Positions 29,873 to 50,856 of a DNA stretch of 64,000 nucleotides are shown piece by piece. The position numbers and the translations under genes were made by a program. The stretch spans positions 124,001 through 188,000 of the forward strand of contig NZ_PJCH01000011.1 in assembly GCF_002943565.1 (NCBI RefSeq), given 5' to 3'. Numbering within the stretch: position 1 is the stretch's first letter; the number at the start of each line of letters is the position of its first letter. This DNA comes from Hyphococcus luteus (lineage in GTDB: Bacteria > Pseudomonadota > Alphaproteobacteria > Caulobacterales > Parvularculaceae). The notes under the pieces were generated by a model. That model ran no database searches. It was not told where the DNA came from and worked only from the letters and a program-made list of their open reading frames with translations.

Positions 29873-30373
29873 TTAGGGCCGGCAACCGGCGATCCCCGCC
29901 GCCGGAGAGACTATGCTCCAGCCGGCGCTGTCGCTGACCTTGATCAGGCCCTGTTCAAGATAGGCCCCTTCGCTGAATTCAAGGCCGAAGCGCGCCGAGA
30001 CTTCGACGACAACGCCGTCACCGCTTTCAAAACGCTGGCGTTCGTAAACGCCGTACCCTGATGCGCCATAGAATTGCGTGCGCGCCAGATGCACCGGCCG
30101 GCCCGCAATATTCACCTGCGCCTGCTTTTCCGCGACATATTGAAAAACCGCCGACGGACGCGCGCCTTCGAGCGTCCACAAGATCATCCCGCATTCGCCC
30201 GAAGGAATTCGCGCATCGCTGAGCGGGCGCAGGCCTTGCGCGGCCACATCCGCCTTTGCAAGATCGAGTGGCGCATCATCTTGTTCTTCCACCGCCGTTT
30301 CGTCGCCTCTTATGGTGGCGCAGGCGCCGGTCAGGGACAACGCGGCGAGCATTGCAATGGTTTTGCGGTTCAT
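29873..30373 (-). CDS. Small lipoprotein at the end of the gsp operon
   Basis: A 166-residue predicted lipoprotein with lipobox LTGAC (Cys18), and Ala at +2, which favours the outer membrane. I recognise no family. The mature part has an acidic linker (about 25-45), then a compact domain with two further Cys (in SGECGMI and at the end, AGCRP) that could form a disulfide. The start overlaps the gspN stop by four bases, so it is the thirteenth gene of the T2SS operon. Position, size and lipidation make it a candidate pilotin or accessory factor for the secretin GspD; that is inference without sequence homology. Confidence 0.8.
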   Translation of the reverse strand: MNRKTIAMLAALSLTGACATIRGDETAVEEQDDAPLDLAKADVAAQGLRPLSDARIPSGECGMILWTLEGARPSAVFQYVAEKQAQVNIAGRPVHLARTQFYGASGYGVYERQRFESGDGVVVEVSARFGLEFSEGAYLEQGLIKVSDSAGWSIVSPAAGIAGCRP

Positions 30374-31149
30374 GATCCCGTCCCTTTGAACACGCCCGCC
30401 GATCCATAGATCAGGGCGCCGTTGTCATCCTCAAACCCGAAGCCGCGCAAAGCCGAAGCAATGCCTTCCTCCTCTGGACGCGCCGTCGCCGTGATTTCAT
30501 AGGCGAGGGTCCGGTCGATGCGCAGCACGACCTCCGCATCGGCCTTGACGTTGGCCCCGGCCAGCGACACCACCAGCCGGCCGTCCTCGCAGGCGACGCC
30601 GCCGGCCATGGGCATGGCCGGAAGATTAAACCGTTTCGCCGGCGCGTCGAGCACGTCGGTCCACAAATCGCCTTCGGCGGCGCGGCACCCTTTGGCGCGG
30701 GAAAAAGCGATGCGTTTGATATCGACTTTCGCAATCCCACGCGCCGGCTCGCCGAAAACCCCGCGCGGCGCGATAGCCCCCAGCCGGATGTCGGCGGCGA
30801 CATTTTCAAGAGTGAGCTTCTGGCCCGGGCCTGCGCTGATGCGGCCTTCGCCATTGATCGCGCCGCCTTGCGCCTTGAAAGAAACAGACGGCGCGGCGCG
30901 CAGCAGCGACAAAGGCGCAAGGCGGAAAGAGACATCGCCCAAGGGGGCGCCGCGCACCGACAGATCGGAAAACCCGCCGCGCCAGATGGTGCCGTGCACG
31001 CCGCTATAAGCGACGCCCTGTTTTTCGAAGTCGATGAAAGCCGAGACGAAACTGAGCGGCGCCGATACGATAATCGTCGCTGCGAAAACAACGCCCGCCG
31101 CGATGAGCGGCGCTTTCAAGCCCTGGAATATCTTTGCGCGTTCCGTCAT
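30370..31149 (-). CDS. gspN: Type II secretion protein N
   Basis: A 259-residue inner-membrane protein with one N-terminal helix (about 13-38) and a periplasmic beta-rich domain. GspN-family features are the YSGVHGTIWRGGFSDLSVRG stretch and the repeated short beta segments. GspN is an optional T2SS part whose exact role is unclear. It overlaps gspM and the following lipoprotein gene by four bases each. Confidence 0.85.
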   Translation of the reverse strand: MTERAKIFQGLKAPLIAAGVVFAATIIVSAPLSFVSAFIDFEKQGVAYSGVHGTIWRGGFSDLSVRGAPLGDVSFRLAPLSLLRAAPSVSFKAQGGAINGEGRISAGPGQKLTLENVAADIRLGAIAPRGVFGEPARGIAKVDIKRIAFSRAKGCRAAEGDLWTDVLDAPAKRFNLPAMPMAGGVACEDGRLVVSLAGANVKADAEVVLRIDRTLAYEITATARPEEEGIASALRGFGFEDDNGALIYGSAGVFKGTGS

Positions 31150-31610
31150 AAGCGCTGAAACACCAGAACCTGCGGCGTCACCTCGCCGCCTTGCCCCCGC
31201 GCAATGTCGGCGGTCGCAAGCGCTGCGCCGTAACGGTTTTCAAGATCTGCGAGCCAAGCGAAAAAGACATCGCCCTCAACCGGTTCGATCTGAACTTCAA
31301 TCTGATTGTTGTTTTCCGTTCCGATGCGGACAAGCTGAATACCGGCTGCATTTGTGGTCGTAATGAGCGCGTCGCGGAGAGGCGTCCGGGCGAGCGGCGC
31401 GCCCTGCTCCGTTCCGCCTGCAACAGCCGCCGCCGCAGCGGTGAGTTCGTAAGCGTCCCGCGCCGAACTTGCGTTTCTTTCCGCCGAGGCGCGCATGCCC
31501 GCCAGTGGGCGAACAATGCCCAGCGACAACAATAGAACGCCGGCAAGCGCGCTTGCGATCAGGACTAGCATGCGCTCGCGCGCCGAAAGATCGCTCCACC
31601 ATGCACTCAT
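31146..31610 (-). CDS. gspM: Type II secretion protein M
   Basis: A 154-residue bitopic protein: a short cytosolic start (SAWWSDLSARERML), one helix at about 14-32, then a periplasmic ferredoxin-like domain. The WWxxLSxRER pattern is typical. GspM pairs with GspL in the inner-membrane platform. It overlaps gspL and gspN by four bases each. Confidence 0.9.
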   Translation of the reverse strand: MSAWWSDLSARERMLVLIASALAGVLLLSLGIVRPLAGMRASAERNASSARDAYELTAAAAAVAGGTEQGAPLARTPLRDALITTTNAAGIQLVRIGTENNNQIEVQIEPVEGDVFFAWLADLENRYGAALATADIARGQGGEVTPQVLVFQRL

Positions 31611-32803
31611 GAGAAACTCACCCGCAATTCGCCGCGATAGGCGCCGCCCGTACGCACGACGCCGCCTGCTTCCGCTGCATTCAGTCCGCGCGAGGCGAGC
31701 GCGCGCTTTAGAGCCTCGAATTGGGAAATATCGCGGAAGCGCAAATTCACCGAATAGTCGCCGCGCGAAGCATTGTAGCGGATGCGGTCGATTTCGACGC
31801 CGCCATTTTCCTCGACGCTGTCGGCGAGATTATTGGTCAGGGCAAGGAAAAGCGGCCGCCCGCCGCCCGCCGCCAGGATCTGGCGGGCATGAGCACGCGG
31901 ATCGGCGCCCGCCGCATCGGGAAAGGCGGCTTCATGCAGCGCGCGCGTTTCTTCCTCCAGCCGGTCCGCAGTTCTGAGATCGCGCATGGTCGCCGCCACG
32001 GTGGACAACGTCAGCGCCGCCAGCGAGGCCGCCGCCAGAACGGCGACGCGCCGCCACGGGCCCGCCGCTGCGCGCCAGTCACGGCGCTTGCGGTAAGGCC
32101 CTTGCCGCAAGTTCGGCGCACTTTGAAGTCCCGCCGCATAGGTCCGGAACAGCGCTTCGTCGAAAAGCGCGGCGCGGCGTTCGACGCTGACGCCCTGACG
32201 GCCGCCGGCGTCGATGGCGCTGCCGCCGTAAACCACAATATCCGAAATATTCTCGTCATCGATCAACGAAGAAACGAGCTCGTCCGCCAGCGGGCGGTCC
32301 ATGGCGAAACCGGAAAGACCAACAGCCCCGATCACCCGGTCGGCTGTTTCCACAAAGACCGCGCGTCCCGGCGTCATCGGCAAAAGCGCGAAATCCGCCG
32401 TCACGACATCCGGCGAAATCCCGGTCTCGCTCAAAGCTTCGAGCCAGCCTTCGAGCACCGGTTTTTTTACGGCGAGCGCCACGCCGGCGCCGCTCGGATG
32501 ACGCATGGACGCGACATGAACGTGGTCGAGATTTTCGGCGAGCTCGTCTTCGAGCAAATAGCCGACGGCGGCGCGGAACTGGCCCTGACCTTTCGGCGGC
32601 GCCGGCAGGGCCCGCATGGCGACGCATTCGCCGGGCAGGACGGCGGCGATAAGCTTCGCCGCCGCGGCGCGCTCTGCGACAGCCTCAAGGCCTGACTCGT
32701 CTGTCGCCATATCAGCGAGCGTGACGCGGCCCTCGCTCAGGAAAGCCCAGCGGACCGGACCGTCAGGGGCCTCGCTCAAGAGGAGGATTAAGGTTTCGTT
32801 CAC
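31607..32803 (-). CDS. gspL: Type II secretion protein L
   Basis: A 398-residue platform protein. Residues about 1-235 are the actin-like cytosolic domain that recruits GspE, a single helix lies at about 248-268 (RRVAVLAAASLAALTLSTVAA), and about 290-398 is the periplasmic ferredoxin-like domain ending GAYRGELRVSFS. Overlaps with gspK and gspM are four bases. Confidence 0.9.
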   Translation of the reverse strand: MNETLILLLSEAPDGPVRWAFLSEGRVTLADMATDESGLEAVAERAAAAKLIAAVLPGECVAMRALPAPPKGQGQFRAAVGYLLEDELAENLDHVHVASMRHPSGAGVALAVKKPVLEGWLEALSETGISPDVVTADFALLPMTPGRAVFVETADRVIGAVGLSGFAMDRPLADELVSSLIDDENISDIVVYGGSAIDAGGRQGVSVERRAALFDEALFRTYAAGLQSAPNLRQGPYRKRRDWRAAAGPWRRVAVLAAASLAALTLSTVAATMRDLRTADRLEEETRALHEAAFPDAAGADPRAHARQILAAGGGRPLFLALTNNLADSVEENGGVEIDRIRYNASRGDYSVNLRFRDISQFEALKRALASRGLNAAEAGGVVRTGGAYRGELRVSFS

Positions 32804-33771
32804 TCTTCAGCTCCGATGCGACGCGCCAGAACGCGCGCGCCGCGCCCTCCGGTTTCAATCATCGACGTCATTTCCAATAGGGCAGTATCATAAACAATCT
32901 CTGCACGGGCCTGCAGATAGCGCGAGGTCACGTCAAACCGGTCCGATCCGGAGAGATTGAGGGCGGCCACGGCGGGAACGCCCATGAATTCCTGGACTGC
33001 GGCGTAGCCGCCCGGCGGGCGGTCCGAGATGATGTCCCTGGCCGCCTGGACCGTCACCTCAGGGCCCAAAGCCGCCGCCAGCACCGGGGCCCGGGCCTCG
33101 GTCAGCATATTCACATTGATCTTCATGGCCGCCTCGTCCGACCCGGCGCACAGATAGGGTTTCAGCGCGCCGTAAATCTCGCGGGTGACGCCTTTGATGG
33201 CGCGCAATTCGGAAATCGAGGCGAGCTTCTGATTGCCCGTGCGATAGGGCGACGGCAGCAGGGTGTAATAGCCGTCCTCGGCGCCTTGCGGACGGCGGCT
33301 CGTATCCTCGTCGATCCAGTCGCCGATGCTTTCGGCGAGCGCGCGGGCGTCGAACTCGCCGACGCCGGCATGGCCTGCAAGACGGATGAACTCGGCGACG
33401 GGACCGTTCTGCGCATTCCGGTCGTCATAGGCGCCGCCGAGCGAGTTGACATTGAAGCAGGTCGTGGCGTCGGCGAAGAAGACCCGCGCCGAGCCCCGTT
33501 CCAGCGGCAGCTCCACCGGCGCCGTCGCCCAAGGATCGTCGAGAGACATGGTCGCGTTTTCCTGGCCGAGAATTTCCTCGACCGCCGCGAGCGCCAGGGT
33601 CTCGATGCCGAAGGCGCCCCACAGGGCTTCGCCGCGGGCGGTGACGTTGATTGTTCGCGAGAAGGCGAGCTTTGTCTTTTCCATCGCCGAGACCGCTACG
33701 AAAGAAACGGTCGCCGCCAGAAGCAAGACGATGAGAAGCGCCGCGCCGCGTTGTTTCTTACGGTCGGTCAT
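32800..33771 (-). CDS. gspK: Type II secretion minor pseudopilin K
   Basis: A 323-residue large minor pseudopilin. The prepilin leader MTDRKKQRG is followed by AALLIVLLLAATVS and, as is normal for GspK only, lacks Glu at position 5 of the mature protein. The periplasmic domain holds the NVNSLGGAYDDRNAQ and DWIDEDTSRRPQGAEDGYYTLLPSPYR stretches that fit the GspK insertion domain. GspK caps the pseudopilus tip with GspI and GspJ. Four-base overlaps on both sides. Confidence 0.93.
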   Translation of the reverse strand: MTDRKKQRGAALLIVLLLAATVSFVAVSAMEKTKLAFSRTINVTARGEALWGAFGIETLALAAVEEILGQENATMSLDDPWATAPVELPLERGSARVFFADATTCFNVNSLGGAYDDRNAQNGPVAEFIRLAGHAGVGEFDARALAESIGDWIDEDTSRRPQGAEDGYYTLLPSPYRTGNQKLASISELRAIKGVTREIYGALKPYLCAGSDEAAMKINVNMLTEARAPVLAAALGPEVTVQAARDIISDRPPGGYAAVQEFMGVPAVAALNLSGSDRFDVTSRYLQARAEIVYDTALLEMTSMIETGGRGARVLARRIGAEE

Positions 33772-35760: not shown

Positions 35761-35774
35761 AAGTCTTCTCCGGA

Positions 35775-36992
35775 TTAGCCGACCGCCAGCGTGTTGATGC
35801 GCAGGATCGGCAGCAAAATTGACAATACAATGACCAAGACGGCCCCGCCCATGGCGACAATGATGGCGGGCTCCAAAAGCCTTAACGCAACCGTCGAGGC
35901 GGTGTCGAATTCCTCTTCGAGCTGCGCCGCACCCTTGTCGAGGAGTTCCGACAAAGCGCCCGCGCGCTCGCCCGCCGCCACCATATGGGTCAGCATGGGC
36001 GGCAGAACATCGGCCCTTTTCAGCGCCGCCGCAAGCGAGGTCCCCTCGCCCACCATGGAGACCGTGCGGTCGAGGCGCGAGCGAATATAGCTGTTCGAAA
36101 TCGTCCGCTGAGACCCGATGAGGCTGTCGAGGAGCGGCGCGCCGCCGGAAAACAGCGTCGCCAGCGTGCGCGCAAACCGCGCCCCGTCAATGGCGCGGGC
36201 GAGACGGCCGATCACCGGCAGTTTGAGGATATAACGGTCGACGGCGAGCTTGAAAGAAGGCTGCTTCATCGCCTGCCAGAAGGCGACGCCAGCGATGGCG
36301 AGCGCCAGCAGGGCGAAAAACCCGTAGCTCACGGTCCAGTTGGAGAGCCCAACGACGATTTTGGTGAGAAACGGCAGCTCCGCATCGAAAGTGTTGAACT
36401 GCTCGATGATTTTCGGAACCACGAACACCATCAGCGCCGTAACGACGCCCCCGGCGATCGCCATCAGCGCCGCCGGATAGATCAGCGAAGCGATCGCCTT
36501 GTTGCGAATGGCGCGGTTCTTTTCGAGCATGGCGGCGAGCCGGTCGAGCACGCCGGCGAGATCGCCCGAGGTTTCGCCCGCGGCGATCACCGCTCGGTAA
36601 AGCGCCGGAAAGGATTTCTCGTCTTCGGCGAGGGCGTCGGCGAAACGCCAGCCCTCCATCACCCGCTCGCGCACAGCGATAAGACGGGTGCGCGCGGGAC
36701 CGGCTTCGGCCTGCACGGCGACGGCGTTCAGGGCTTCTTCGAGCGGCGTGCCCGCGCCGAGAAGCGCCGCCAATTGCCGCGTGATCATGACGAGCTGGCC
36801 GGGCTTCACCCGCGGCGTTTTTTGCGATCCGAAAGCGCCCGCCTTCTGTTCGCTGCGCGGCGCGGAAAGGCGCACCGGCGTCAAATGCATGCGCCTTAGC
36901 TCCTGGCGCGCCTGGCGCTGGCTGTCGGCGGACAACACGCCCTTTTTCGTCTTGCCGCCGAAGTCGAGGGCCTCATATTCAAAGGCCGGCAT
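35775..36992 (-). CDS. gspF: Type II secretion inner-membrane platform protein F
   Basis: A 405-residue polytopic platform protein with two repeated T2SSF domains (about 70-195 and 275-395). The chosen ATG at 36992 gives MPAFEYEALDFGGKTKKG, has GGAGGAAG just upstream, and overlaps gspE by 14 bases. A longer form from 37055 adds 21 residues that do not fit the family. Confidence 0.95.
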   Translation of the reverse strand: MPAFEYEALDFGGKTKKGVLSADSQRQARQELRRMHLTPVRLSAPRSEQKAGAFGSQKTPRVKPGQLVMITRQLAALLGAGTPLEEALNAVAVQAEAGPARTRLIAVRERVMEGWRFADALAEDEKSFPALYRAVIAAGETSGDLAGVLDRLAAMLEKNRAIRNKAIASLIYPAALMAIAGGVVTALMVFVVPKIIEQFNTFDAELPFLTKIVVGLSNWTVSYGFFALLALAIAGVAFWQAMKQPSFKLAVDRYILKLPVIGRLARAIDGARFARTLATLFSGGAPLLDSLIGSQRTISNSYIRSRLDRTVSMVGEGTSLAAALKRADVLPPMLTHMVAAGERAGALSELLDKGAAQLEEEFDTASTVALRLLEPAIIVAMGGAVLVIVLSILLPILRINTLAVG

Positions 36993-38487
36993 TGTCTTCC
37001 TCCTGACGCACCACGCGCAAGACTTCTTCGATGGAAGTGAGGCCGGAGCGCACATGGCGCAAGCCCGACTGGGTCAGCGTGTCCGCATGGGCAAAAGCGT
37101 AGGCGGCGATGTCCTGTTCCCCGGCGCCGTCATGAATGAAGCGCTTCAGCTTTTCATCAATGACGATGAGTTCGTAAACGCCGATGCGCCCTTCATAGCC
37201 GGTGTTGTTGCAGCGCCCGCAGCCGACCGGACGATAAAGAGTTGCGGCCTCGCCATCACGAAGGCCGGCCATTTTCCGTTCCGCCGCATCGGGCTCGTAA
37301 GCCTCCTTGCAGGACGGGCAGAGCCGGCGCACGAGGCGCTGCGCCATGACGGCGGCGAGCGTCGAGGACAAAAGGAACGGCTCAACGCCCATGTCGCGCA
37401 AGCGGGTGATGGCGCCCACAGCGGAATTCGTGTGCACGGTCGAAAGAACGAGATGGCCGGTGAGCGAGGCCTGCACAGCGATTTCGGCGGTTTCCACATC
37501 GCGGATCTCGCCGACCATGACGATGTCCGGGTCCTGGCGGAGAATGGCGCGCAGGCCCGTCGCGAAGGTCATGCCGACTTTCGGATTGATCTGGGTCTGG
37601 CCGACGCCCTCGATGGCGTATTCCACCGGGTCTTCAACAGTGAGGATATTGCGCTCCGGCTCGTTCAAGAGCGTCAGGGCGCCGTAAAGCGTCGTGGTCT
37701 TGCCCGAACCCGTCGGTCCGGTGACGAGAATGATGCCGTTGGGCCGGGCCAGCGCCTGTTTGAAGCGCGCAAGGATTTCCGCCGGCATGCCGAGCCCGTC
37801 GAGATCGAGCCGCGCCTCGTCCTTGTCGAGAATGCGCATGACGACCCGCTCGCCGAAGCGCGCCGGCAAGGTCGAAACGCGCACATCCACGGTCTTGCCG
37901 CCAAGGGCGATGGAAATGCGCCCGTCCTGGGGCACGCGGCGTTCGGCGATGTCGAGTCGCGCCATGACTTTGACCCGCGAGGTCAGAACCGGCGTCATCC
38001 GCGCCGGCAGGGAGAGAACTTCGCGCAAAACGCCGTCAATGCGCAGGCGCACGGACAACGCTTTTTCATAAGGCTCGATGTGAATGTCCGAGGCTTTCAC
38101 TTTCACCGCTTCGGCGATCAGCGCGTTAATGAGACGGATCACCGGCGCGTCGTTTTCGCTGTCGAGAAGATCAGCGGTTTTGGGCAGGCCTTCGGCGAGG
38201 GAGGCGAGATCCCCTTCGTCGCCGTCGAGATCGAGATCGGCGGTGGAAATGCCTTCAACGGAATAGATTTCCGAAAGCCGGCGCTCGAAGACGTCGGCGG
38301 GCATGAGATCGACGGCGACAGGCGCGCCGACGGCGCGGCGCGCTTCGATCACCGCCCAGGGATCGGGCGCCTTGCCGCGCGCGCCGAGGAGAACCGGCTC
38401 GGCTTCGCCATCGAGCACGAGGAGCCCGCGCTCTTTGGCAAACGCATAGGCGAGCCTCGCCATTCCTCTTTCGCGCGTTTCACTCAT
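36979..38487 (-). CDS. gspE: Type II secretion ATPase E
   Basis: A 502-residue hexameric ATPase powering pseudopilus assembly. The order is an N1E-type domain (about 1-140), then a RecA-like core with Walker A GPTGSGKTTTLYGAL, the Asp box RQDPDIVMVGEIRDVETAEIA and a His box. The tetracysteine zinc motif follows as CPSC then CGRC. The C-terminal NNTGYEGRIGVYELI is typical. It acts in the cytosol, docked to GspL. Confidence 0.96.
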   Translation of the reverse strand: MSETRERGMARLAYAFAKERGLLVLDGEAEPVLLGARGKAPDPWAVIEARRAVGAPVAVDLMPADVFERRLSEIYSVEGISTADLDLDGDEGDLASLAEGLPKTADLLDSENDAPVIRLINALIAEAVKVKASDIHIEPYEKALSVRLRIDGVLREVLSLPARMTPVLTSRVKVMARLDIAERRVPQDGRISIALGGKTVDVRVSTLPARFGERVVMRILDKDEARLDLDGLGMPAEILARFKQALARPNGIILVTGPTGSGKTTTLYGALTLLNEPERNILTVEDPVEYAIEGVGQTQINPKVGMTFATGLRAILRQDPDIVMVGEIRDVETAEIAVQASLTGHLVLSTVHTNSAVGAITRLRDMGVEPFLLSSTLAAVMAQRLVRRLCPSCKEAYEPDAAERKMAGLRDGEAATLYRPVGCGRCNNTGYEGRIGVYELIVIDEKLKRFIHDGAGEQDIAAYAFAHADTLTQSGLRHVRSGLTSIEEVLRVVRQEEDNAGL

Positions 38488-38499
38488 GGTTCTTAACGC

Positions 38500-40530
38500 C
38501 TAATACGAGTCTGGGGCGGGCGCTTCGACGCCCGTCACATCATTGATCAAACGCTCCATCTCCGACACCGGCTGGCCGTCGCGCAGAAGCTCGCGCGCGC
38601 GCATGTAATCGAATTTGCGCTTGGTGGCCGCCTGCGCAGTCTCCTGGTCGCGAATGACCGTCGGCCGGATGAACACCATCAGGTTTTGCCGGCGGCGCTC
38701 CTTCGACGACGACTTGAAGAGATTGCCGACGCCGGGAATGTCCCCGAGCAGCGGCACTTTTTCCGAGCGCTCTTCGCGGGTGTCGTCAACGAGACCGCCG
38801 ATGACCAGGATGTCGCCATTATCGACCAGCGCCGTCGTGGTGATTTCGCGTTTATTGGTGATGAGGTCGGTGGAAGACGTGTTGATCGGCCCTGCGATCG
38901 AGGAGATTTCCTGCACGATTTCCATGGTCACCGTATCGCCGTCATTGATTTGCGGCGTCACTTCCAAAATGACGCCCACCTGCTCGCGGCTGATCGTCCG
39001 AAACGCATTGGAGAAATTGTCGCCGATGGCCTCGCCCGTGGTGATGGGAATTTCTTGTCCCACCTGAAGGCGGGCCGTCGTATTGTTGAGGGTTACGACC
39101 GACGGCGTCGAGAGAACATTGGAGTCGGAGTCGTTTTTAAGCGCCGTCAGAATGCCGCCGAAAATATTGCCGTCGCCAAACTCAAAACCGCCCCCAAGCG
39201 TAAGCCCCTGCACGCCGATCAGCGACTGCAGCGCCTGTTTGGCCAGTTCCGACTGAATGCTTTCGGTTTCGGTATTGGTCACGACGCCGTTGGCGTCGGT
39301 GATCGTTGTCGAGGGCGTCTCAAAAACATCGGTGAATTTCGATCCGTTTAACAGGGCTGCGCCGGCGGCGGGATAAATGTTGGGCCCGGCGGAATAATTC
39401 GTCGCCGAAAACGGAATGTTGTCGCCGGTCAGGAAATACTGAACGCCGAGCTCGCGCGCGGCCGTGTCCGATATTTCCACGATGATCGCCTCCACCTGCA
39501 CCTGCGGACGGCGCACGTCGAGCTTGGCGATGACGTTCTGCAGCGTGCGCTGGATATTGGCGTCGCCATTGATGATGATCGAATTGGTCGGTTTATGGAA
39601 CGACACTGTCGCGCGGCTGCGTGAGATGGTCGTGCCGCCGCCCTCGCCGCCTTGGACGACATTGTTGGCGACTTCCTCCAGAAGCGGCGCAAGTTCTTCG
39701 GCGTTGGCGTGTTTGAGCGCGACGACCGCAAGCTCCGAGGTCGCTTCGCCATATTGATCGAGCTCGCCGATCACCAGTTCGAGCCGGCGCATGAGGCTCG
39801 GCTCGGCGCGGATGAGAAGTGAATTGCTGGCTTCCGCCGCGACCACGCTGAAGCCCCCGCGCCCGCCATTCTCTTCGGTCATTTCCTGGCCGATTTCGCG
39901 CACCAGCCGCGCCACTTCGCCGGCGGAAGCGTATTTGAGGGCGACCGTGCGATAGGTGGTCGTATCGCGGTCGAGCTCCTGAAGGACGCTGCGGATGCGC
40001 TCGGCGTTGTCCGCCGTATCGACAATGATCACGGCATTGCCGGTGCGCACCGGGCTGACGACGCCGTTATTGCCGATGATCTGGGCGAGGTTCGCCGCAG
40101 CCTCGCGCGCATCCACATATTTAAGCCGCACGATCTGCGTCGTCAGATCAGACCCCTTGCCCTCGCCAACCGGCCCCGCGGTGCGCGCCGCCTCCTGCAA
40201 GGGCACGATGCGGTATTTGCCGTCGCCGATGGGCGTCGCCACGAAATCGTTGGCGCGCAGGATCGCCTGGAACAGCTCCCAGGCCTCATCGGCGCAGAGC
40301 CCGCCATTGGGCGGCGACTTCACATTGACGCGCCCCTGCACCGCCGGATCGAGCAAAAAGGTCCGCCCCGTGCGGATGGCGATTTCATCAATCACGGCGC
40401 GCAGATCGGCGTCCTCGTAATTGAGCGCTTCGCCGCAATTTTGCTGTTGCTGCGCCAGCGCGGCGCCCGGCCCCATGAGACAGGCGGCCCCGAAACCAAA
40501 AGCGGCCAACGCCCTGCATAAGGTGTTCAT
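38500..40530 (-). CDS. gspD: Type II secretion outer-membrane secretin D
   Basis: A 676-residue secretin with signal peptide (about 1-26). The N0 domain (LNYEDADLRAVIDEIAIRTGRTFLLDP) is followed by N1-N3 domains and a secretin channel domain (about 350-610). Channel signatures are VPLLGDIPGVGNLF and the RQNLMVFIRPTVI end. About 55 residues follow the channel, in the place of a pilotin-binding S domain. Its start overlaps the gspC stop (TAATG). Confidence 0.96.
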   Translation of the reverse strand: MNTLCRALAAFGFGAACLMGPGAALAQQQQNCGEALNYEDADLRAVIDEIAIRTGRTFLLDPAVQGRVNVKSPPNGGLCADEAWELFQAILRANDFVATPIGDGKYRIVPLQEAARTAGPVGEGKGSDLTTQIVRLKYVDAREAAANLAQIIGNNGVVSPVRTGNAVIIVDTADNAERIRSVLQELDRDTTTYRTVALKYASAGEVARLVREIGQEMTEENGGRGGFSVVAAEASNSLLIRAEPSLMRRLELVIGELDQYGEATSELAVVALKHANAEELAPLLEEVANNVVQGGEGGGTTISRSRATVSFHKPTNSIIINGDANIQRTLQNVIAKLDVRRPQVQVEAIIVEISDTAARELGVQYFLTGDNIPFSATNYSAGPNIYPAAGAALLNGSKFTDVFETPSTTITDANGVVTNTETESIQSELAKQALQSLIGVQGLTLGGGFEFGDGNIFGGILTALKNDSDSNVLSTPSVVTLNNTTARLQVGQEIPITTGEAIGDNFSNAFRTISREQVGVILEVTPQINDGDTVTMEIVQEISSIAGPINTSSTDLITNKREITTTALVDNGDILVIGGLVDDTREERSEKVPLLGDIPGVGNLFKSSSKERRRQNLMVFIRPTVIRDQETAQAATKRKFDYMRARELLRDGQPVSEMERLINDVTGVEAPAPDSY

Positions 40531-41429
40531 TACTCATTCCCTGACTGACTAAGCGAAAGGGTGAGCGTCTGCCTGACGCCGTTCCTTTCGATTGTGACTG
40601 AAGCGGACCCGGCCCGGCTGATCTGATTAAGAAGCTCCGACATTCTGGCGGGATTTGACGACGGCTCGGTCCCGTTGATGGCGCGGACAATGTCTCCGTC
40701 GCGAAAACCGGCGTCTTCGAACGCCGCGCGGTCGCGGCCGGCGAAAACCATGACCGCCGGGCCCCCTTCAGGATCGACGCCGAGCCCGAAGCGGACAAGG
40801 CCGTTCAACATGTCGCGGGACGGCAAGTTGCCGATCTTGTCCGACGGGTCTTGCTCTTGCGCTGTCTCGGCAGGCTGATTTTGAACGGGCTGGCTCTGCA
40901 CGGGCGCCGGCCGCTCGATCGGCGCCTTGTTTTCAAAACGCAAGGATTCGCGCACGCCGTTTTGTTCGATAATGACATGATCGGAATGAACCGCAACCAG
41001 CCGGACGCCGGAGACGATCTCTTCACCGATGGCGAAACGGCGTTGCTCGCCTTCGGGAAGGCGGATGATCGCCGAGGGTTTTTCTTCCGCCGGCCAGACG
41101 CCATTGAGGCCGAGATCAAGCGCCGTTTCCTCAAGGTCCGCCGTCGCATCGACAACCGGCGCCGCAGCCTCGCTCGCAGCCGGAAACGGGTTGCGCGCAG
41201 TCACCTGGCGGTCTTCCCCGCCCGCGGCCCCCGCGCCCGCCGCTGCGAGCCTGTCGCCCTTCGGCAGGGGCAAAGGCGCGAAAAAAGCGATCGCCGCCTT
41301 GGCCAGGAAAAACGCGGTCAGCGCAAGCAGCAGCCATTCGGCCAAACGCGGGGCGCGCGCGAGCCATCCGGCCGCGCGCCGCGCGCCCGATGCGCCGCCA
41401 GTCGCCTGATGAAATTCTGCGCTCGCCAC
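40530..41429 (-). CDS. gspC: Type II secretion protein C with PDZ domain
   Basis: A 299-residue protein linking the inner platform to the secretin. It has a cytosolic N-terminus, one helix at about 29-50, a homology-region domain at about 95-165 (LNGVWPAEEKPSAIIRLPEGEQRRFAIGEEI), and a C-terminal PDZ domain at about 200-295 (FRDGDIVRAINGTEPSSNPARM). The GTG start at 41429 is the best available. It is the first gene of a 13-gene operon running to 29873. Confidence 0.92.
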   Translation of the reverse strand: MASAEFHQATGGASGARRAAGWLARAPRLAEWLLLALTAFFLAKAAIAFFAPLPLPKGDRLAAAGAGAAGGEDRQVTARNPFPAASEAAAPVVDATADLEETALDLGLNGVWPAEEKPSAIIRLPEGEQRRFAIGEEIVSGVRLVAVHSDHVIIEQNGVRESLRFENKAPIERPAPVQSQPVQNQPAETAQEQDPSDKIGNLPSRDMLNGLVRFGLGVDPEGGPAVMVFAGRDRAAFEDAGFRDGDIVRAINGTEPSSNPARMSELLNQISRAGSASVTIERNGVRQTLTLSLSQSGNE

Positions 41430-41730: not shown

Positions 41731-44370
41731 CTAGAACCGCGCGGTCAGGCTCGCCGAGAGGCTGCGACCGCGATTGTAGGTGTTGAAGTCGGCGACGCCG
41801 TCTTCGCCAGCCCGAGCAAGATCGGCGGTGCCCCGCTGTTCTTCAATGTGGCGTGCGCCCAGAAGGTTGCGGGCCGAAAGACCGATGGTGAAGTCGGTGC
41901 CGTGAATGATCACGTCCTGACGGAACACAGCGTCAAGCTGGAAGCCCGGCTTCTCATAAACGTCGAGCAGCCGGTTGGCCTTGGTCAGGACCTCGCCGCG
42001 CGCCAGAATGCGCTCGGAGACCCAGCCGCCAAGAAGCGTGAACTGCGTGCTTTCACCTTCCCAGCCGAACTGAGCATTGACGATGTGCTTCGGCGTGCCG
42101 ACCAGCGGCGAGCCGTCAAGACCGTAGCTTGAGGCCAGAACCTGATCGCCATCGCGTTCGGTGACCATGTCGTTGGCGCCAACCACGATTTCCGAATGGG
42201 TGTAGGTATAGTTGACCGAGAACAGCCACTCCTGATCGGCCAGCCAGCCGCTGTCGACCGGCATGGCGAACCGCGTCCGGTATTCGAATTCACCGCCAAG
42301 AAGCTTGGCTTCCGGCGAATTGATGAAGCTCGACTGGAAGGAAAAGTCCGTCGTGGTGAACTGAATTTCCTCGATCGGATTTTCGATCTTCTTGTAGAAA
42401 CCGCCCAACGTGATGAACTGGTTGCGTCCGAGATAATATTCGTAACGGACGTCATAGTTGCGGAATTCGCTGTTGGTCAGATTGCTGTTGCCGAAATAAA
42501 CGCGGTCCGTTTCCGGGTCGCTGAATTGCGACGCGGCGAGTTCGCGGAATTGCGGGCGTGCAATGGTGTGCGAATAGCCGCCGCGCAGCTGCATGTTGTC
42601 CGTGAAGTTCCAGGTGAGGGTCGCCGAGGGCAGCCAGTAATCTTTGGAGATGGCCGTGTCGAACGCCGTGCTGTCTCCAAAGCGGTCGAAGACGTCGACG
42701 GTCTGCCTGGCGTTTTCATAGCGAACGCCGGCTGTTGCGCGGACCGTCGGAATCAGCTCGCCTTCAGCCTGGAAATAGGCGGCTTTGGTCGTCAATTCGC
42801 CATTGTAAGAATTGACGCCCTGGGTGTTGGTGTCGATCAGCTGGAAGCGGTTGGGATCGATATTGTCAGGCGAATAAGCGTAATCGATGCGCGCCTGGGC
42901 GACGTCGATCGGAATCGAGGTGTTCAGCGTGAAGTTGAACGGGTTCGAGATAAATTCCCGGTCGTTGTCGGTATATTCATAGCCAAGGGAAAGCGTCAGC
43001 TCACGCGCTGACGGCATCGGCACATACCAATAGAAATCCCCGCCGGCGCTCCAGGTATCGTCCGTCAATTCGGAAAAATTGATGTTATGGCGCGTGTTGA
43101 AGACGATCGACGGCTGACCGACAATCGTGTCAGTGGCCAGATCGATCGGCGCAGACCGGTTTTCGAGCGAACGCTCGTAAGGCGTATCCCGCGTCGAGCG
43201 CGCAAACGCGCCGCGCCAATTGAAAGAGAACTGATCGCTGAGATCGTGTTCGCCGGACGCCTGCGTCATCCACAAAGCTCGCTGCAGCCAGGAATTCGAT
43301 TCCGTAACGAAACCGCCCGCCCCTTCAGAGTTGAAATTGTAGCCTTCCTGGATCTGCGCTTCTTTCCGGGTCGAATGGATGTAAAGGCCGGTCAGCGTGA
43401 AAACATGAGAATCCATCTCCAGCGCCGCAGACAAAAGCCCGTTGACGGTGGCATCCAGCGCCGTTTCCGTTTGCGTCGAGTTGACGCCAATACGTTCTTC
43501 CGAAGCGAGCTGACGGATGGCTTCTTTCGTCGTCCAGTCCTGTTTGTAGCCGACGACGCCGGTGATGCTGAAGACCGCGCCGCTGTCGATATCCCAATAT
43601 TTGCCGCCTTCGACGGAGCCTTCGTAATTGGGTCCGAGATTGCCGTTCTGGATCACGGAAAGCGGAGAATTGACAAGGCTTTCGCCAATCGCTTCCTGCT
43701 CTTCGTCAGGCAAGTCGCTGAGCTGCATGTCAGTGTTGACGATCGCGCGCAGCTCGCCTGGCATGCTGCGGATGCCGTCATCGTAACCGAGCCAGTCAAG
43801 ATCGCCGCCACGGACGTAAAGGCCGTTATGGGCGGTCGTAAAGGTGTTGGCGCCGATGCCGAGTTTGACATTGAGGAAATTCTCATCCGGCTTGCGGAGC
43901 GTTTCGAGATCGATGATGCCCCCCCCGAATTCGCCGGGATAGTTCGGCGAAAAGGTCTTCTGAACCGTCGCGCCGCCGAGAATATTGGACGGGAAGAGAT
44001 CGAGCGGCACGGTCCGTTTCAACGGCTCCGGGCTCGGCAGCGGCGAGCCGTTAAGGCGCGCCGAGGAATAACGGTCGCCGAGGCCGCGGACATAGGCGAA
44101 CTTTCCGCCCACAATGCTGAGACCGCTCAGACGCTTCAAGGCTTCGGCGGCGGTGTCATCGCCGGTGCGGGCGAGATCGTCCGCGTTGAGGAAAGTCGCG
44201 ACCTGCGATGTGGCGCGCTGGGGTTCGGGAATGTTGCGCCCGAGAACGACGATTTCGTCAGAAATCTGGGGGACGCCTGGTTGCGACTCGTCTTGGGCGA
44301 TTGCGCCCGACAAGGGAGCAAGCATGGTCGTCGCGAGGAGCATGCCTGCTATGGAACGATACGGCTTCAT
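41731..44370 (-). CDS. TonB-dependent outer-membrane receptor
   Basis: An 879-residue receptor. It has a signal peptide (about 1-26), a TonB box DEIVVLGR near residue 38, a plug domain (ALKRLSGLSIVGGKFAYVRGLGDRYSSARLNGSPLPSPEPL), and a large barrel ending in the outer-membrane signal RSLSASLTARF. The start is the ATG at 44370. It follows the duplicated lipoprotein gene by 76 bases, with a hairpin in the gap, and ends at a strong terminator. Co-transcription with a lipoprotein recalls SusC/SusD-style pairs, although the lipoprotein is not SusD-like. Substrate unknown; the upstream Pho boxes suggest a phosphorus source. Confidence 0.93.
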   Translation of the reverse strand: MKPYRSIAGMLLATTMLAPLSGAIAQDESQPGVPQISDEIVVLGRNIPEPQRATSQVATFLNADDLARTGDDTAAEALKRLSGLSIVGGKFAYVRGLGDRYSSARLNGSPLPSPEPLKRTVPLDLFPSNILGGATVQKTFSPNYPGEFGGGIIDLETLRKPDENFLNVKLGIGANTFTTAHNGLYVRGGDLDWLGYDDGIRSMPGELRAIVNTDMQLSDLPDEEQEAIGESLVNSPLSVIQNGNLGPNYEGSVEGGKYWDIDSGAVFSITGVVGYKQDWTTKEAIRQLASEERIGVNSTQTETALDATVNGLLSAALEMDSHVFTLTGLYIHSTRKEAQIQEGYNFNSEGAGGFVTESNSWLQRALWMTQASGEHDLSDQFSFNWRGAFARSTRDTPYERSLENRSAPIDLATDTIVGQPSIVFNTRHNINFSELTDDTWSAGGDFYWYVPMPSARELTLSLGYEYTDNDREFISNPFNFTLNTSIPIDVAQARIDYAYSPDNIDPNRFQLIDTNTQGVNSYNGELTTKAAYFQAEGELIPTVRATAGVRYENARQTVDVFDRFGDSTAFDTAISKDYWLPSATLTWNFTDNMQLRGGYSHTIARPQFRELAASQFSDPETDRVYFGNSNLTNSEFRNYDVRYEYYLGRNQFITLGGFYKKIENPIEEIQFTTTDFSFQSSFINSPEAKLLGGEFEYRTRFAMPVDSGWLADQEWLFSVNYTYTHSEIVVGANDMVTERDGDQVLASSYGLDGSPLVGTPKHIVNAQFGWEGESTQFTLLGGWVSERILARGEVLTKANRLLDVYEKPGFQLDAVFRQDVIIHGTDFTIGLSARNLLGARHIEEQRGTADLARAGEDGVADFNTYNRGRSLSASLTARF

Positions 44371-44408
44371 GATGAGATCAACCTTAATTTGAGTGCGCTG
44401 GAAGAAGA

Positions 44409-44434
44409 GCGGCGCCTCCTCTGGGAGGCGCCGC
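44409..44434 (-). terminator. Intercistronic hairpin (possible attenuator) between lipoprotein and receptor genes
   Basis: A perfect 11-bp GC-rich stem (44409-44419 with 44424-44434) has a 4-base loop and is followed on the minus strand by CTCTTCTTCC rather than a clean T run. It may partly terminate or protect the upstream message, setting a higher lipoprotein than receptor level. Confidence 0.6.
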
Positions 44435-44446
44435 CTGGCTCCGCAA

Positions 44447-47299
44447 TTAGCAATCGTCGGCAGCGAGACCGCAGCTCCAGTCCGCCCACCAGTCATCGGC
44501 CGAGTTCTCGACGGCGCCGATATAGTCGGTGTCTTCGAAGAACGGATCGATGTTGGTCGGAAGATCGGTGAAGGCCGTGCGTCCTGCAGCCGCCGAGTCA
44601 TTGATGAAGCCATCAATCAGGTTGACATCGACGGAAGTCGTGTTGGTCGCGTCGTCAGCGACGGCGTCGACCGCCACTTGCGTTTCCGGATCCTCATTGG
44701 TGAGGCCGCCGGTTCCGCAGTCGAACAGCGTGTTGTTAAAGGTCGGGTCGATATCGACGCCGTCAAAGGTGGCGTCGCCGTCGCCCGCATCCTGCCAGCG
44801 GAAGCATTCATCCGCCTCTTCGACCACGCCATTGATGAAGCGGCCGATGTGACCGGAGTTGATGCGGAAAGAATTGCCCGGATCGGTCGCTTTGGAGGTG
44901 CCGACGATGGTGAAGTTGGCGATGGTCGGGTTCGTCGCCGGAGACACCGTCGTGCCGGCGCTCGACATTTCGAAACCGTTGTCGCCGCGGCCGTCGCGCT
45001 GTTTCACGATGATGAACTGAACATTGCCCTGCCAGCCATTGTCCGTGTCGAGCGAGTCGTCGTCATTGCCCGTCAGGATGATGTGCTTGAGGTTCACCGT
45101 GCCGCCGAACATCTCCATGCCGTCGTCGGAGTTGTTGTGCACCTGGACATACTCAACTGTGGTGCCGGAGCCGACGCCGCCCCAGGAGATGCCGTTCAGC
45201 TCGTTGCCGGAAGACAGCGGGAAGCCGGCGAATTTCACCTGCGTGTACATCAAGGTTCCGCTGTTGTCGGCTGCTACGCCGCCGCCATACTGGGCTTCCG
45301 GCGCGGTCACGCCTTCGATGACGTTTTCGCAGTCGGCCATGCCCGGCGTGCCGCCGCCTTCGCAGCGGTTGATCGGCGCGCGGCCGAGAATGACGAGGCC
45401 GCCCCATTCGCCGATGGAGTCGAGGCGAAGCGAGGGGGAAACATCGCCCTGAAGGTCGGCTTCGGACGTGAAGACCACCGGGTTCTGACGCGTGCCCATG
45501 GAGAAGATCTGCGAGCCGCGATTGACGACCATGAAGTCGGAACCGGAGTTGCCGAAGATCGAAACGCCCGGTTCGATGTTCAGAACGGCCGGATCGCCGG
45601 CCGGGTCGAGACCGTCATTGCCCACATCGACGCCGATTTCAACGCGGCCGCTGAGTTCGTAGTAATTGCCACGGGTCAGGGTGAAGTCGTCGACATTAAC
45701 GCCGGCGACTTCGCAAACGCGCACGCCGTTGATGTCGTTGCCGGTGTCGGTGGTGCCGTCCGGACAGCCGGGATCTTCGAACACGTTGAACGTCCAGCCA
45801 GTCGCCCAGTTATTGGTTTCGGTTTCATCGGGACCGAAGGCGCCGAGATAGTCGGTGTCTTCGAAGAACGGATCGATCGTCGTCAGGTCGAACGGAGTCG
45901 CCATCGGCGGAACTTCCTTGGCGCCGGCCTGGAAGTTCGTGGTGATGGAGCTCGCCTCCTGAGAGTTGTTCGGATCGTTAGTGACCGAGTCGACCGCCGC
46001 CGGGGTTTCCGGATCGTCGATCGTCAGACCGCCGGTCCCGCAGTCAAACAGAACCGAATTGAAGGTCGGGTCGGTTCCGACGCCGTCATAGGTGGCGTTG
46101 TCGTTGCCCGCATCCTGCCAGCGGAAGCACTCATCCTGATCGATGACGACACCGTTGAGAAAGCGCCCGACATGCCCGGAGTTAATGCGCAGGGCATTGC
46201 CGGGATCGGTGGCTTTCGTCGACCCGACGATGGTGAAGTTGGCGATGGTCGGGTTCGTCGCCGGAGACACCGTCGTGCCGGCGCTCGACATTTCGAAGCC
46301 GTTGTCGCCGCGACCGTCGATTTGTTTGACGAGCAGGAACTGCACCTTGCCCTGCCAGCCATTGTCCGTGTCGAGCGAGTCGTCGTCATTGCCCGTCAGG
46401 ACGATGTGCTTGAGGTTCACCGTGCCGCCGAACATTTCCATGCCGTCGTCGGAGTTGTTGTGCACCTGAACGTAATCGACAGTGGTGCCGGCGCCGACGC
46501 CGCCCCAGGAGATGCCGTTCAACTCGTTGCCGGAAGACAGCGGGAAGCCTGCGTAGCGAACCTGTACGTAGCGCAGCGTGCCGGAGTTGTCGTCGGAAAC
46601 GCCGCCGCCATACTGGGCTTCCGGCGCGGTCACGCCTTCAACAACGTTTTCGCAGTCGGCCATGCCCGGCGTGCCGCCGCCTTCGCAGCGGTTGATGGGC
46701 GCGCGGCCGAGAATAACGAGGCCGCCCCATTCGCCGATGGCGTTGTCGGGATCGGCCTGCGTGCCTTCGAGATCGGCGCGGCTGGTGAAGACGATCGGCG
46801 CCGATTGGTCGCCGTCGGCTTCGAGGCGCGAACCGCGGTTAACCACCATGAAGTCGCTGCCGGATTCACCGAACAGGGTGACGCCCGGCTGAATGGTCAG
46901 GACCGCCGGGTCGCCGCCAGAGGCATCCGCGCCGACGTCTTCGCCGACATTGACGCGGCCGCTGATCCGGTACGCCACCGGAATACCGTCGCCATCGTCA
47001 TCTTTAAAGGGAAGCGCAATATTGGAAAGAATTGTGCCGGCGACGTCGCAGACGACCTGATCGACGCCGGTCGGATTGGCACCGGTAACCGGCAGGTCGA
47101 GCGCGTCGCCCTCGGCGAAACCGGTCGGACAGGCGTCCGCCGACACGGCGCCGCCTGTGCTTCCGCCGCCGCCGCCGCTCGGCGGCGTGCCCGGGTCTGT
47201 CGCTCCCGGCGATTCGATATCGCTGCCCTGCGTACAGGCGACCAGCGTCATCGCTGCGCCCGCAAGAAGAAACTTTTTCATGTTCGAGAATTGGCTCAT
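44447..47299 (-). CDS. Internally duplicated surface-type lipoprotein, partner of TonB receptor
   Basis: A 950-residue predicted lipoprotein: signal peptide with LVAC lipobox (Cys22, Thr at +2), then a Gly/Ser/Pro-rich tether (about 30-50). Two homologous halves follow, about 80-500 and 530-940. Each carries GDPAVLxIxPGVxxFGxSGSDFMVVNRGS, EWGGLVILGRAPINRCEGG, NNSDDGMEMFGGTVNLKH and NGVV...ECFRWQDAG. The short parallel repeats suggest a right-handed beta-helix with paired Cys and many Asp/Asn, possibly Ca-binding. GGGGG precedes the ATG at 47299. It is followed by the TonB-receptor gene and preceded by tandem Pho boxes. Role in substrate capture or hydrolysis is inference; I cannot name the family. 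Confidence 0.82.
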   Translation of the reverse strand: MSQFSNMKKFLLAGAAMTLVACTQGSDIESPGATDPGTPPSGGGGGSTGGAVSADACPTGFAEGDALDLPVTGANPTGVDQVVCDVAGTILSNIALPFKDDDGDGIPVAYRISGRVNVGEDVGADASGGDPAVLTIQPGVTLFGESGSDFMVVNRGSRLEADGDQSAPIVFTSRADLEGTQADPDNAIGEWGGLVILGRAPINRCEGGGTPGMADCENVVEGVTAPEAQYGGGVSDDNSGTLRYVQVRYAGFPLSSGNELNGISWGGVGAGTTVDYVQVHNNSDDGMEMFGGTVNLKHIVLTGNDDDSLDTDNGWQGKVQFLLVKQIDGRGDNGFEMSSAGTTVSPATNPTIANFTIVGSTKATDPGNALRINSGHVGRFLNGVVIDQDECFRWQDAGNDNATYDGVGTDPTFNSVLFDCGTGGLTIDDPETPAAVDSVTNDPNNSQEASSITTNFQAGAKEVPPMATPFDLTTIDPFFEDTDYLGAFGPDETETNNWATGWTFNVFEDPGCPDGTTDTGNDINGVRVCEVAGVNVDDFTLTRGNYYELSGRVEIGVDVGNDGLDPAGDPAVLNIEPGVSIFGNSGSDFMVVNRGSQIFSMGTRQNPVVFTSEADLQGDVSPSLRLDSIGEWGGLVILGRAPINRCEGGGTPGMADCENVIEGVTAPEAQYGGGVAADNSGTLMYTQVKFAGFPLSSGNELNGISWGGVGSGTTVEYVQVHNNSDDGMEMFGGTVNLKHIILTGNDDDSLDTDNGWQGNVQFIIVKQRDGRGDNGFEMSSAGTTVSPATNPTIANFTIVGTSKATDPGNSFRINSGHIGRFINGVVEEADECFRWQDAGDGDATFDGVDIDPTFNNTLFDCGTGGLTNEDPETQVAVDAVADDATNTTSVDVNLIDGFINDSAAAGRTAFTDLPTNIDPFFEDTDYIGAVENSADDWWADWSCGLAADDC
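44510..45830 (-). repeat. Second copy of a 1.3-kb tandem duplication inside the lipoprotein gene
   Basis: Long near-identical stretches recur about 1,320-1,330 bases apart. For example, the INRCEGGGTPGMADCEN-coding stretch occurs near 45,330 and again near 46,650, and a nearly identical stretch coding for FFEDTDY followed by a Gly-Ala sits near 44,520 and 45,850. The copies keep frame and differ mainly at third positions and in loop segments. Confidence 0.8.
45840..47150 (-). repeat. First copy of the 1.3-kb tandem duplication inside the lipoprotein gene
   Basis: Encodes the N-terminal homologous half. Boundaries are approximate, set by the first and last conserved blocks I could align by eye. 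Confidence 0.75.
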
Positions 47300-47368
47300 T
47301 GAAGAGACCCCCGGGGGAAAGTGTTACAAAGCATGATCGGCGGCGCCCCACGCGCCGGACGGACTGCC

Positions 47369-47422
47369 GATAGAGGAGGCGTTTGACAGCGGCGTGACAT
47401 GTTTGTTTCAGTTCGATGACAA
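47369..47422 (-). promoter_or_regulatory. Tandem Pho boxes (PhoB sites) and -10 of lipoprotein-receptor operon
   Basis: On the minus strand four 11-base units follow each other without a gap. They begin TTGTCAT (47422), CTGAAAC (47411), ATGTCAC (47400) and CTGTCAA (47389). This is the 7+4 periodicity of PhoB direct repeats. The last pair is the best match to CTGTCAT-N4-CTGTCAY and replaces the -35. A -10-like TCTATC lies at 47374-47369, eight bases beyond the last 7-mer. The lipoprotein ATG is about 80 bases downstream of the boxes. Confidence 0.8.
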
Positions 47423-47605
47423 TTGGCGCGGCGGCGATAATCCGTATGCGCACGGGGTGCATAGGTTAACAAGCGCACCCAGCGCGCACATCGCAACGCA
47501 CCCAATGCGCATGCGTGAAAAAAGCCTCCATAAAGTCATGCGATTGCGCCGCGGCGGCAAATCGGACAGTTTCCCTCACGGCAAACCGGGGCGGTCTTAC
47601 AAACC

Positions 47606-48418
47606 ATGCTGAATGGCGGCGCAAACATCGCGGACTGGGTCTTTTACGCCACAGCGGCAATTGGCGGCGCCCTCCTCGGCAGCTTTCTCAATGTCGTCAT
47701 CCATCGCGGGCCGGTAATGTGGAAGCTGGTCGAGGAACCGGCCCGCGGAAACCTCATTTCGCCCCGCTCGTCCTGTCCCGCCTGCGGCGCGAAGATCCGC
47801 GGCTGGCGCCTGATTCCGCTTGTCAGCTATGCGATTCTCGGCGGCAAATGCGCGGACTGCGGCGCGAAGATTTCCCTGCGCTATCCGCTGGTGGAGCTCA
47901 TGGGGGCGGCGGCGGGCGTCGTCGCGCTGCTGTTATTCGGACTGACAGGCGAAGCCGGGCTCGCCTTTGTCTTTTTTCTCTTTCTTATCGCGCTCGGCGT
48001 CATCGATCATGAAACCGGCTATCTGCCCGACGCGCTGACGCTGCCGCTCATTCTCCTCGGTTTTCTCGCCAACGCGTTCTCGCTTTTTGCACCCGTGACG
48101 GACGCTTTGCTTGGCGCGATCATCGCCTATGGCGCGTTCCGTCTTATCGATTTGGCCTTCACGCGGCTGCGGGGGCTCGAAGGGTTGGGCCAGGGCGATG
48201 CGAAACTCCTCGCCGCGCTCGGCGCCTGGCTCGGCTGGATGATGCTGCCCGTCATCGTCTTCCTCGCCGCGCTTCTCGCGCTCGCCGGGGTTCTCGCAAT
48301 GGCGCTTGGCGGCGCGAAGATGGAACGCGAGACGCCGGTCGCTTTCGGCCCGGCGCTCGCCGCCGCCGGGGCGCTGGCCATGATCGCGCAGGGGCTGCGC
48401 CTGTCTTTCTTCTTCTAA
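47606..48418 (+). CDS. gspO: Prepilin peptidase (A24 family)
   Basis: A 270-residue inner-membrane aspartyl protease/methylase that trims and methylates pseudopilins GspG-K. The N-terminal domain has GSFLNVVIHRGP and a zinc knuckle made of CPACGAKI and CADCGAKI. The two catalytic Asp lie in GVIDHETGYLPD and GLGQGDAKLL. About eight helices. It is the only prepilin peptidase in the window and lies 6 kb from gspC, divergent from the lipoprotein-receptor operon. It supplies the O function missing from gspC-N. Confidence 0.94.
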   Translation: MLNGGANIADWVFYATAAIGGALLGSFLNVVIHRGPVMWKLVEEPARGNLISPRSSCPACGAKIRGWRLIPLVSYAILGGKCADCGAKISLRYPLVELMGAAAGVVALLLFGLTGEAGLAFVFFLFLIALGVIDHETGYLPDALTLPLILLGFLANAFSLFAPVTDALLGAIIAYGAFRLIDLAFTRLRGLEGLGQGDAKLLAALGAWLGWMMLPVIVFLAALLALAGVLAMALGGAKMERETPVAFGPALAAAGALAMIAQGLRLSFFF

Positions 48419-50790: not shown

Positions 50791-50856
50791 TGCGTCATGG
50801 TCGGCTTGAAGGCTGATGTTGCGCCGATGGACATTTCATCCCATCCGCCTGCGACT

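Follow-up and report, generated by a model that had tools for sequence, protein, structure and literature searches.

Does a type II secretion system (T2SS) encoded beside a large surface lipoprotein and a TonB-dependent receptor (TBDR) export that lipoprotein, so that the whole gene run acts as one capture system? This question is raised by a 64,000-nucleotide stretch of Hyphococcus luteus DNA (the window; positions 124001 to 188000 of contig C3 in a host genome of 4.92 Mb), in which the lipoprotein gene, the TBDR gene, gspC to gspN, and a terminal small lipoprotein gene all run one way over 17 kb, while gspO diverges from the same point. An earlier examination of the letters alone (the sequence-only reading) had described this layout, which we recovered in full with Pfam support for the gsp genes and the TBDR, and had proposed a possible phosphate-responsive system in which the T2SS exports the lipoprotein and the lipoprotein hands ligand to the receptor. 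Our analysis indicates that the locus probably consists of two modules, namely a PhoB-controlled surface lipoprotein and TBDR that form a capture and uptake pair, and a neighboring T2SS that serves the same condition. The features of the first module are as follows.

44447..47299, minus strand: ElpS-type surface lipoprotein of 950 amino acids with a lipobox, a tether, and two tandem beta-helix domains (sequence and AlphaFold)
45800..47053, minus strand: beta-helix domain A, about residues 83-500 (AlphaFold)
44480..45751, minus strand: beta-helix domain B, about residues 517-940, a tandem copy of A (AlphaFold and core comparison)
47383..47400, minus strand: Pho-box match ATGTCAC-GCCG-CTGTCAA, which precedes the lipoprotein start codon by 83 bp
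41731..44370, minus strand: TBDR with plug and barrel, 879 amino acids from the ATG at 44370 (PF00593, PF07715)

The longest open reading frame (ORF) of the TBDR spans 41731-44616 on the minus strand, but its likely start is the ATG at 44370, 76 bp from the lipoprotein stop. Computation shows a close pairing of the two genes. We surveyed 33 chosen genomes; 27 of them, picked as lipoprotein-only or oddly arranged cases rather than at random, carry the lipoprotein (26 from the same order and 1 from the class). An adjacent, same-strand TBDR homologue (E ≤ 1e-40) was found in 26 of these 27, and no TBDR homologue was found in any of the six order genomes that have only the T2SS. Looking further afield than the order, we searched named genomes with a profile and obtained at least 586 loci; the best 80 of these, again not a random sample, were inspected. 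In 66 of the 80, which come from several phyla, the lipoprotein match has a TBDR on its own strand no more than 1.7 kb away (37 downstream and 29 upstream). Five further loci (L097, L106, L110, L112, and L117) have a Pfam-recognized TBDR with a CarboxypepD_reg-type N-terminal domain 4.0-5.4 kb from the lipoprotein, together with ExbB/ExbD/TonB matches in the flanks, and thus show the same partners in another layout. At L132, an ORF with a plug domain lies about 4 kb away, and at L080, L090, L096, and L107 the sequence stops less than 0.8 kb past the lipoprotein. The relatives among the best 80 also include Bacteroidota, Poribacteria, Acidobacteria, and Verrucomicrobiales; in Hymenobacter and Parabacteroides, a TBDR adjoins the lipoprotein. 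Plasmids of Indioceanicola and Sphingomonas carry the order lipoprotein-TBDR-gspC-like-gspD, whereas on a Marinobacter plasmid no TBDR is annotated next to the relative; the Phocaeicola stretch with a relative bears no annotation.

The link to the T2SS is of another kind. A survey of 150 genomes from the same order found the lipoprotein in 116 and GspL in 107; 101 had both, 15 the lipoprotein alone, 6 GspL alone, and 28 neither (Fisher p 5e-14; the co-occurrence counts are uncorrected for phylogeny throughout). Four of the 15 GspL-less lipoprotein genomes have GspG, and 11 of the 116, with a stated completeness of 99-100%, have neither GspL nor GspG. The co-occurrence that the sequence-only reading suggested checking was seen for the receptor, and the T2SS is separable from the lipoprotein. 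Where both are present, 72 of the 101 genomes have GspL 9-13 kb downstream of the lipoprotein and on its strand, while in 4 the two are divergent and in 25 they are distant or on another contig; the recurrence of order and spacing in those 72 shows that the arrangement of the window is not due to chance. Of 142 genomes drawn from across the class, three had the lipoprotein; GspL exceeded the cut-off in the same three, and two further genomes had GspL below the cut-off and no lipoprotein. Conversely, gspC and gspO diverge with no lipoprotein-TBDR pair between them in one genome of the same genus (G175) and one of the same family (G219). T2SS genes occur in the flanks of 14 of the 80 named loci (Alphaproteobacteria, Xanthomonas, SAR86, and one other gammaproteobacterium); the flank of L137 has a GspE match only.

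The T2SS set in the window is complete, with gspC to gspN and a prepilin peptidase gene, and every component has a Pfam match.

40530..41429, minus strand: gspC (PF11356)
38500..40530, minus strand: gspD secretin (PF00263, PF03958, PF21305)
36979..38487, minus strand: gspE ATPase (PF00437)
35775..37055, minus strand: gspF, longest ORF (PF00482)
35760-35299, minus strand: gspG (Pfam)
35306-34776, minus strand: gspH (Pfam)
34792-34424, minus strand: gspI (Pfam)
34427-33768, minus strand: gspJ (Pfam)
33771-32800, minus strand: gspK (Pfam)
32803-31607, minus strand: gspL (Pfam)
31610-31146, minus strand: gspM (Pfam)
31149-30370, minus strand: gspN (Pfam)
29873..30373, minus strand: small lipoprotein of 166 amino acids, last gene of the T2SS module
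47606..48418, plus strand: gspO, prepilin peptidase (A24), divergent (PF06750, PF01478)

Because the longest ORF of gspF overlaps the end of gspE, its true start probably lies somewhat inside that ORF. Secretin genes occur at three places in the host genome, of which this gspD is one. At loci L038 and L052, a GspC-like match is found just upstream of the lipoprotein-TBDR pair, and in the genome of L052 (G172) a T2SS cluster lies about 155 kb away.

The 166-residue lipoprotein has a lipobox-like LTGAC, no Pfam match, and a mainly beta model with eight predicted strands, which is barrel-like by its matches and has no confident PDB match. It was found in 72 of the 150 order genomes, 71 of which are among the 107 with GspL, and in 70 of the 72 its gene follows gspL on that gene's strand at a distance of 1.0-2.0 kb. 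Five of the six T2SS-only genomes have it, and it was not found in any of the 11 lipoprotein genomes that lack the T2SS, although its absences are less sure because at most 24 candidates were scored per genome. The small lipoprotein thus tracks the T2SS and not the lipoprotein-TBDR pair, and it is a candidate accessory or pilotin-like protein of the alphaproteobacterial T2SS; when it was considered as a T2SS pilotin (GspS/AspS), its T2SS link was seen together with the mainly beta model. Taken together, the pairing, the T2SS-less and T2SS-only genomes, and the distribution of the small lipoprotein separate the pair as one module from the T2SS and small lipoprotein as another, and we rejected the view of the 17-kb run as one functional unit.

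What kind of protein does the first module carry? The large lipoprotein has the lipobox LVAC at residues 19-22, with Cys22 as the lipidated residue, and a Gly/Pro-rich tether at about residues 31-53. Its AlphaFold model is almost wholly beta and consists of two tandem right-handed beta-helices (mean predicted local distance difference test score 89.2, predicted template modeling score 0.87). The lipobox, flexible tether, and beta-helix repeats noted earlier are all supported. The residues after the cysteine, TQGSDIESPG, contain a conserved element, [IV]xSPG placed 2-9 residues past the Cys, that recurs in all 47 lipoprotein loci (39 distinct). The cores of domains A and B are 84% identical over 300 nucleotides, and a comparison that covered 48 of the 53 aligned proteins (880-1000 amino acids, with 250 random pairs for the between-protein means) shows that the two cores of one protein resemble each other more, on average, than cores of related proteins do; the N-terminal parts of the domains, unlike the cores, show no such likeness. 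At fourfold sites (29 loci analyzed), the two cores are 93% identical in L011. Single-domain relatives from genomes of the same order align with the window lipoprotein at 42-44%. A Pfam library scan gave no match over the cut-off for the window protein; the relatives listed bear the precomputed Pfam assignment PF28492.1.

The phosphate response suggested by the sequence-only reading is supported by a conserved Pho box, by a PhoB in the host genome, and by the PhoB dependence of the elpS promoter, induced by phosphate starvation, in Caulobacter (PMC5172544). The divergent starts of the lipoprotein gene and gspO are 306 bp apart, and the Pho-box match lies in between. As the Pho-box consensus we took two CTGTCAY half-sites with a 4-bp spacer, scored to a maximum of 12 with a cut at 10 chosen after viewing the distribution. 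In a first set of 39 loci (47 less 8 with identical upstream DNA), 22, including the window, have a coding-strand score of at least 10/12 in the 300 bp before the gene, and in 21 of these 22 the box lies 78-131 bp before the start; the opposite strand gave 2/39, random windows 38/1950, and spacers other than 4 bp 0-4/39. A second set with 350-bp windows (32 of the 37 named loci with the lipoprotein first, plus 4 plasmid loci; L077, L085, L092, L108, and L115 were omitted for having little upstream DNA) gave 17/36, against 5/36 on the opposite strand, 32/1800 in random windows, and 0-2 with other spacers; its L072 and L081 come from the same genomes as L035 and L024 of the first set. Among the gammaproteobacterial loci of the second set whose flanks have no T2SS genes, 13 of 19 have the box, which makes the footprint independent of a neighboring T2SS.

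In the host genome, the strict Pho-box pattern occurs at two places only, the lipoprotein promoter and a double site on C12, and the reversed strict pattern is absent. The C12 site (G000:C12:270434-270460; L147:3935-3961) is a run of half-sites, flanked on one side by the gene of a small secreted-looking protein and on the other by a cluster that includes an OmpA-family gene. A single PhoB exceeds the curated cut-off in this genome; PhoB, PhoU, and a PhoR-like kinase lie together (G000:C12:858710-859381 and L154) with no Pst genes between. The PstS model PF12849, which matches 13 of 14 control genomes, found no PstS in this 99%-complete genome. The window also encodes a PhoX-like protein of 521 amino acids at 2767-4332 on the plus strand (PF05787, E 6e-12).

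A closely similar locus has been studied experimentally. Le Blastier et al. (2010; PMC2996285) describe cc0170 (elpS), the TBDR gene cc0171, and gspC-N in tandem in Caulobacter, and a similar organization in Xanthomonas campestris, Sphingomonas alaskensis, and Hyphomonas neptunium; the order elpS-TBDR-gspC-N, which the sequence-only reading had not known from elsewhere, is therefore already published. ElpS is made on phosphate starvation, palmitoylated, and located in the outer membrane. Surface display unaffected by loss of the T2SS, the outcome named beforehand as fatal to export through the T2SS, is what those authors observed, in that proteinase K strips ElpS equally from the wild type and from a gspC-N deletion. 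The T2SS is required instead for release of ElpS into the medium, which protease inhibitors stop; the released form starts at Asn38, a position that would fall within the Gly-rich tether that single-domain relatives such as L036 show. From the co-occurrence of homologues, the same authors had already surmised that elpS and cc0171 interact. According to another report, the T2SS itself belongs to the PhoB regulon (PMC11208175).

With the locus read as two modules, phosphate starvation would lead PhoB to act at the Pho box at 47383-47400 and turn on the ElpS-family lipoprotein, which would get to the cell surface by a T2SS-independent route. There, the beta-helix faces may bind a phosphorus-bearing ligand, or a phosphatase, and the lipoprotein's own TBDR would import the product. 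The T2SS, with gspO and the small lipoprotein, would export enzymes that help under this same starvation; one of its exports in Caulobacter is probably a protease that sheds the lipoprotein. We infer the ligand binding, receptor contact, hand-over, and import, as well as the transfer of the Caulobacter facts to Hyphococcus.

Several observations weigh against this interpretation, and the strongest are negative results from Caulobacter: in the 2010 report, deletion of elpS left phosphatase activity unchanged, ElpS was still produced after deletion of cc0171, a constitutive gene, and intracellular phosphate showed no change (PMC2996285). One lipoprotein genome of the 27 (G178) gave no receptor match, and no TBDR was found at L113, L118, L121, and L123, loci that do not end near the 3' side of the lipoprotein. 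In the first set, 17 of 39 loci fall below the Pho-box cut-off, and the only single-domain loci to reach it are L041 and L042, although Caulobacter elpS itself is PhoB-dependent. The genes by the C12 Pho-box site (OmpA-family, M23 peptidase, and small secreted-looking) show no evident phosphate link. The lipoprotein's co-occurrence with the T2SS is itself strong, at 101 of 116. Finally, beta-helices are common in polysaccharide enzymes, and that of the lipoprotein may thus be catalytic.

This last point leads to a model that we consider doubtful, in which the beta-helices act as a lyase or hydrolase that cuts phosphorylated polysaccharide or nucleic acid into fragments for import by the receptor. 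Likeness of fold, however, is no proof of function, the lipoprotein has no carbohydrate-enzyme Pfam domain at E 0.01, and the ten best Foldseek rows for its model have TM-scores (template modeling, by query length) of 0.13-0.19. The ElpS authors' own proposal, a less likely account than ours but one with experiments behind it, is that a protease secreted by the T2SS cuts the lipoprotein loose; the freed lipoprotein then activates an extracellular phosphatase, and the receptor does no more than take up the products. Overexpression of elpS raised phosphatase activity in the supernatant, while refolded purified and immunoprecipitated ElpS had none of their own (PMC2996285), and the T2SS-dependent, protease-inhibitor-blocked release at Asn38 and the PhoX-like gene of the window fit as well. 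The unchanged phosphatase activity of the elpS deletion counts against it, as do the 11 order genomes that keep the lipoprotein but show no GspL or GspG and hence cannot release it in a T2SS-dependent way, and the presence of T2SS genes in just 14 of 80 flanks, T2SS genes elsewhere in those genomes not having been sought.

The proposal of the sequence-only reading, with GspD as the lipoprotein's passage across the outer membrane and ligand then handed to the receptor, is very improbable. The synteny in 72 of 101 genomes, the co-occurrence, and an Asp at position +2 in a few relatives (L006, L046, L057, L075, L114, and L134) speak for it. Against it stand the same 11 T2SS-less genomes, the Thr that follows the lipidated Cys in the window lipoprotein (CTQG; Ser, Gly, and Gln are also found there across loci), and the T2SS-independent display of Caulobacter ElpS (PMC2996285), which refutes it for that relative. 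A tempting story is thereby corrected by published experiments together with our survey, which also sorts the membership of the genes.

The favored two-module interpretation makes the pair a testable partner for receptors that have no known ligand, and one that may bring phosphorus into aquatic bacteria. It is conceivable, though we hold this only tentatively, that the pair is a widespread SusC/SusD counterpart built on a beta-helix, serving surface phosphorus capture in Alpha- and Gammaproteobacteria, that the relatives in Bacteroidota, Poribacteria, and Acidobacteria serve other ligands, and that in this host, with its PhoR-like kinase, PhoU, and PhoB and no PstS found, it is a main high-affinity entry route for phosphorus. 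The stretch conserved past the Cys could be of use in tracing the T2SS-independent surface route of these lipoproteins, and the small lipoprotein offers a candidate accessory part of the alphaproteobacterial T2SS.

Two further ORFs of the window were considered. A 533-residue ORF at 49233-50834 (minus strand) was rejected as a neighboring gene; on the opposite strand it overlaps an aldehyde dehydrogenase gene at 49284-50771 (plus strand), so its apparent conservation means nothing. A 701-residue ORF at 9339-11444 has a coding-like composition and no Pfam match.

How does the locus compare with known systems? Pseudoalteromonas, Alteromonas, Idiomarina, Colwellia, and similar pairs (L056, L062, L064-L071, L086, and L103) have a lipoprotein of the same family with a TBDR directly downstream and, in 10 of the 12, a Pho-box score of at least 10; unlike the window, they have no T2SS genes in the flank. 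Genes for DUF3450, ExbB, ExbD, TonB, and tetratricopeptide repeat (TPR) proteins lie near 7 of the 12 (L056, L062, L067, L070, L071, L086, and L103; in the TPR position, L062 has a gene annotated as hypothetical), and in Pseudoalteromonas the order DUF3450-ExbB-ExbB-ExbD-TonB precedes the pair, with no T2SS gene in the stretch. The SusC/SusD systems of Bacteroidota likewise consist of a surface lipoprotein encoded beside its own TBDR, but SusD-family lipoproteins are alpha-helical and TPR-like. A SusD-like partner was rejected for the window, in agreement with the sequence-only reading, since the lipoprotein is modeled as beta-helices and has no SusD match at E 0.01 in Pfam or NCBIfam; among the NCBIfam models, the TBDR matches TonB-Xanth-Caul below the cut-off and no SusC/RagA model, in a library whose SusC models are unproven on known SusC proteins. 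Pullulanase-type lipoproteins are surface lipoproteins exported by the T2SS and have Asp at +2 after the lipidated Cys; the window lipoprotein is similarly linked to T2SS genes, but it lacks that Asp, and its Caulobacter relative is surface-exposed without a T2SS (PMC2996285).

The nearest likeness is to the Caulobacter elpS locus, which shares the gene order, the lipoprotein, the adjacent TBDR, a full T2SS, gspO, and phosphate control (PMC2996285); the window lipoprotein is set beside CC0170 by way of that published description. The two differ in size, ElpS being about 50 kDa and the window lipoprotein 950 amino acids with two beta-helix domains, and in gspO, which lies past gspN in Caulobacter and diverges from the lipoprotein gene in the window. 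The window thus adds a member to an already published kind of arrangement; new relative to the published locus are the double beta-helix, in which the two cores stay similar, the division into two modules, the extension of the Pho footprint into Gammaproteobacteria, and the T2SS-linked small lipoprotein.

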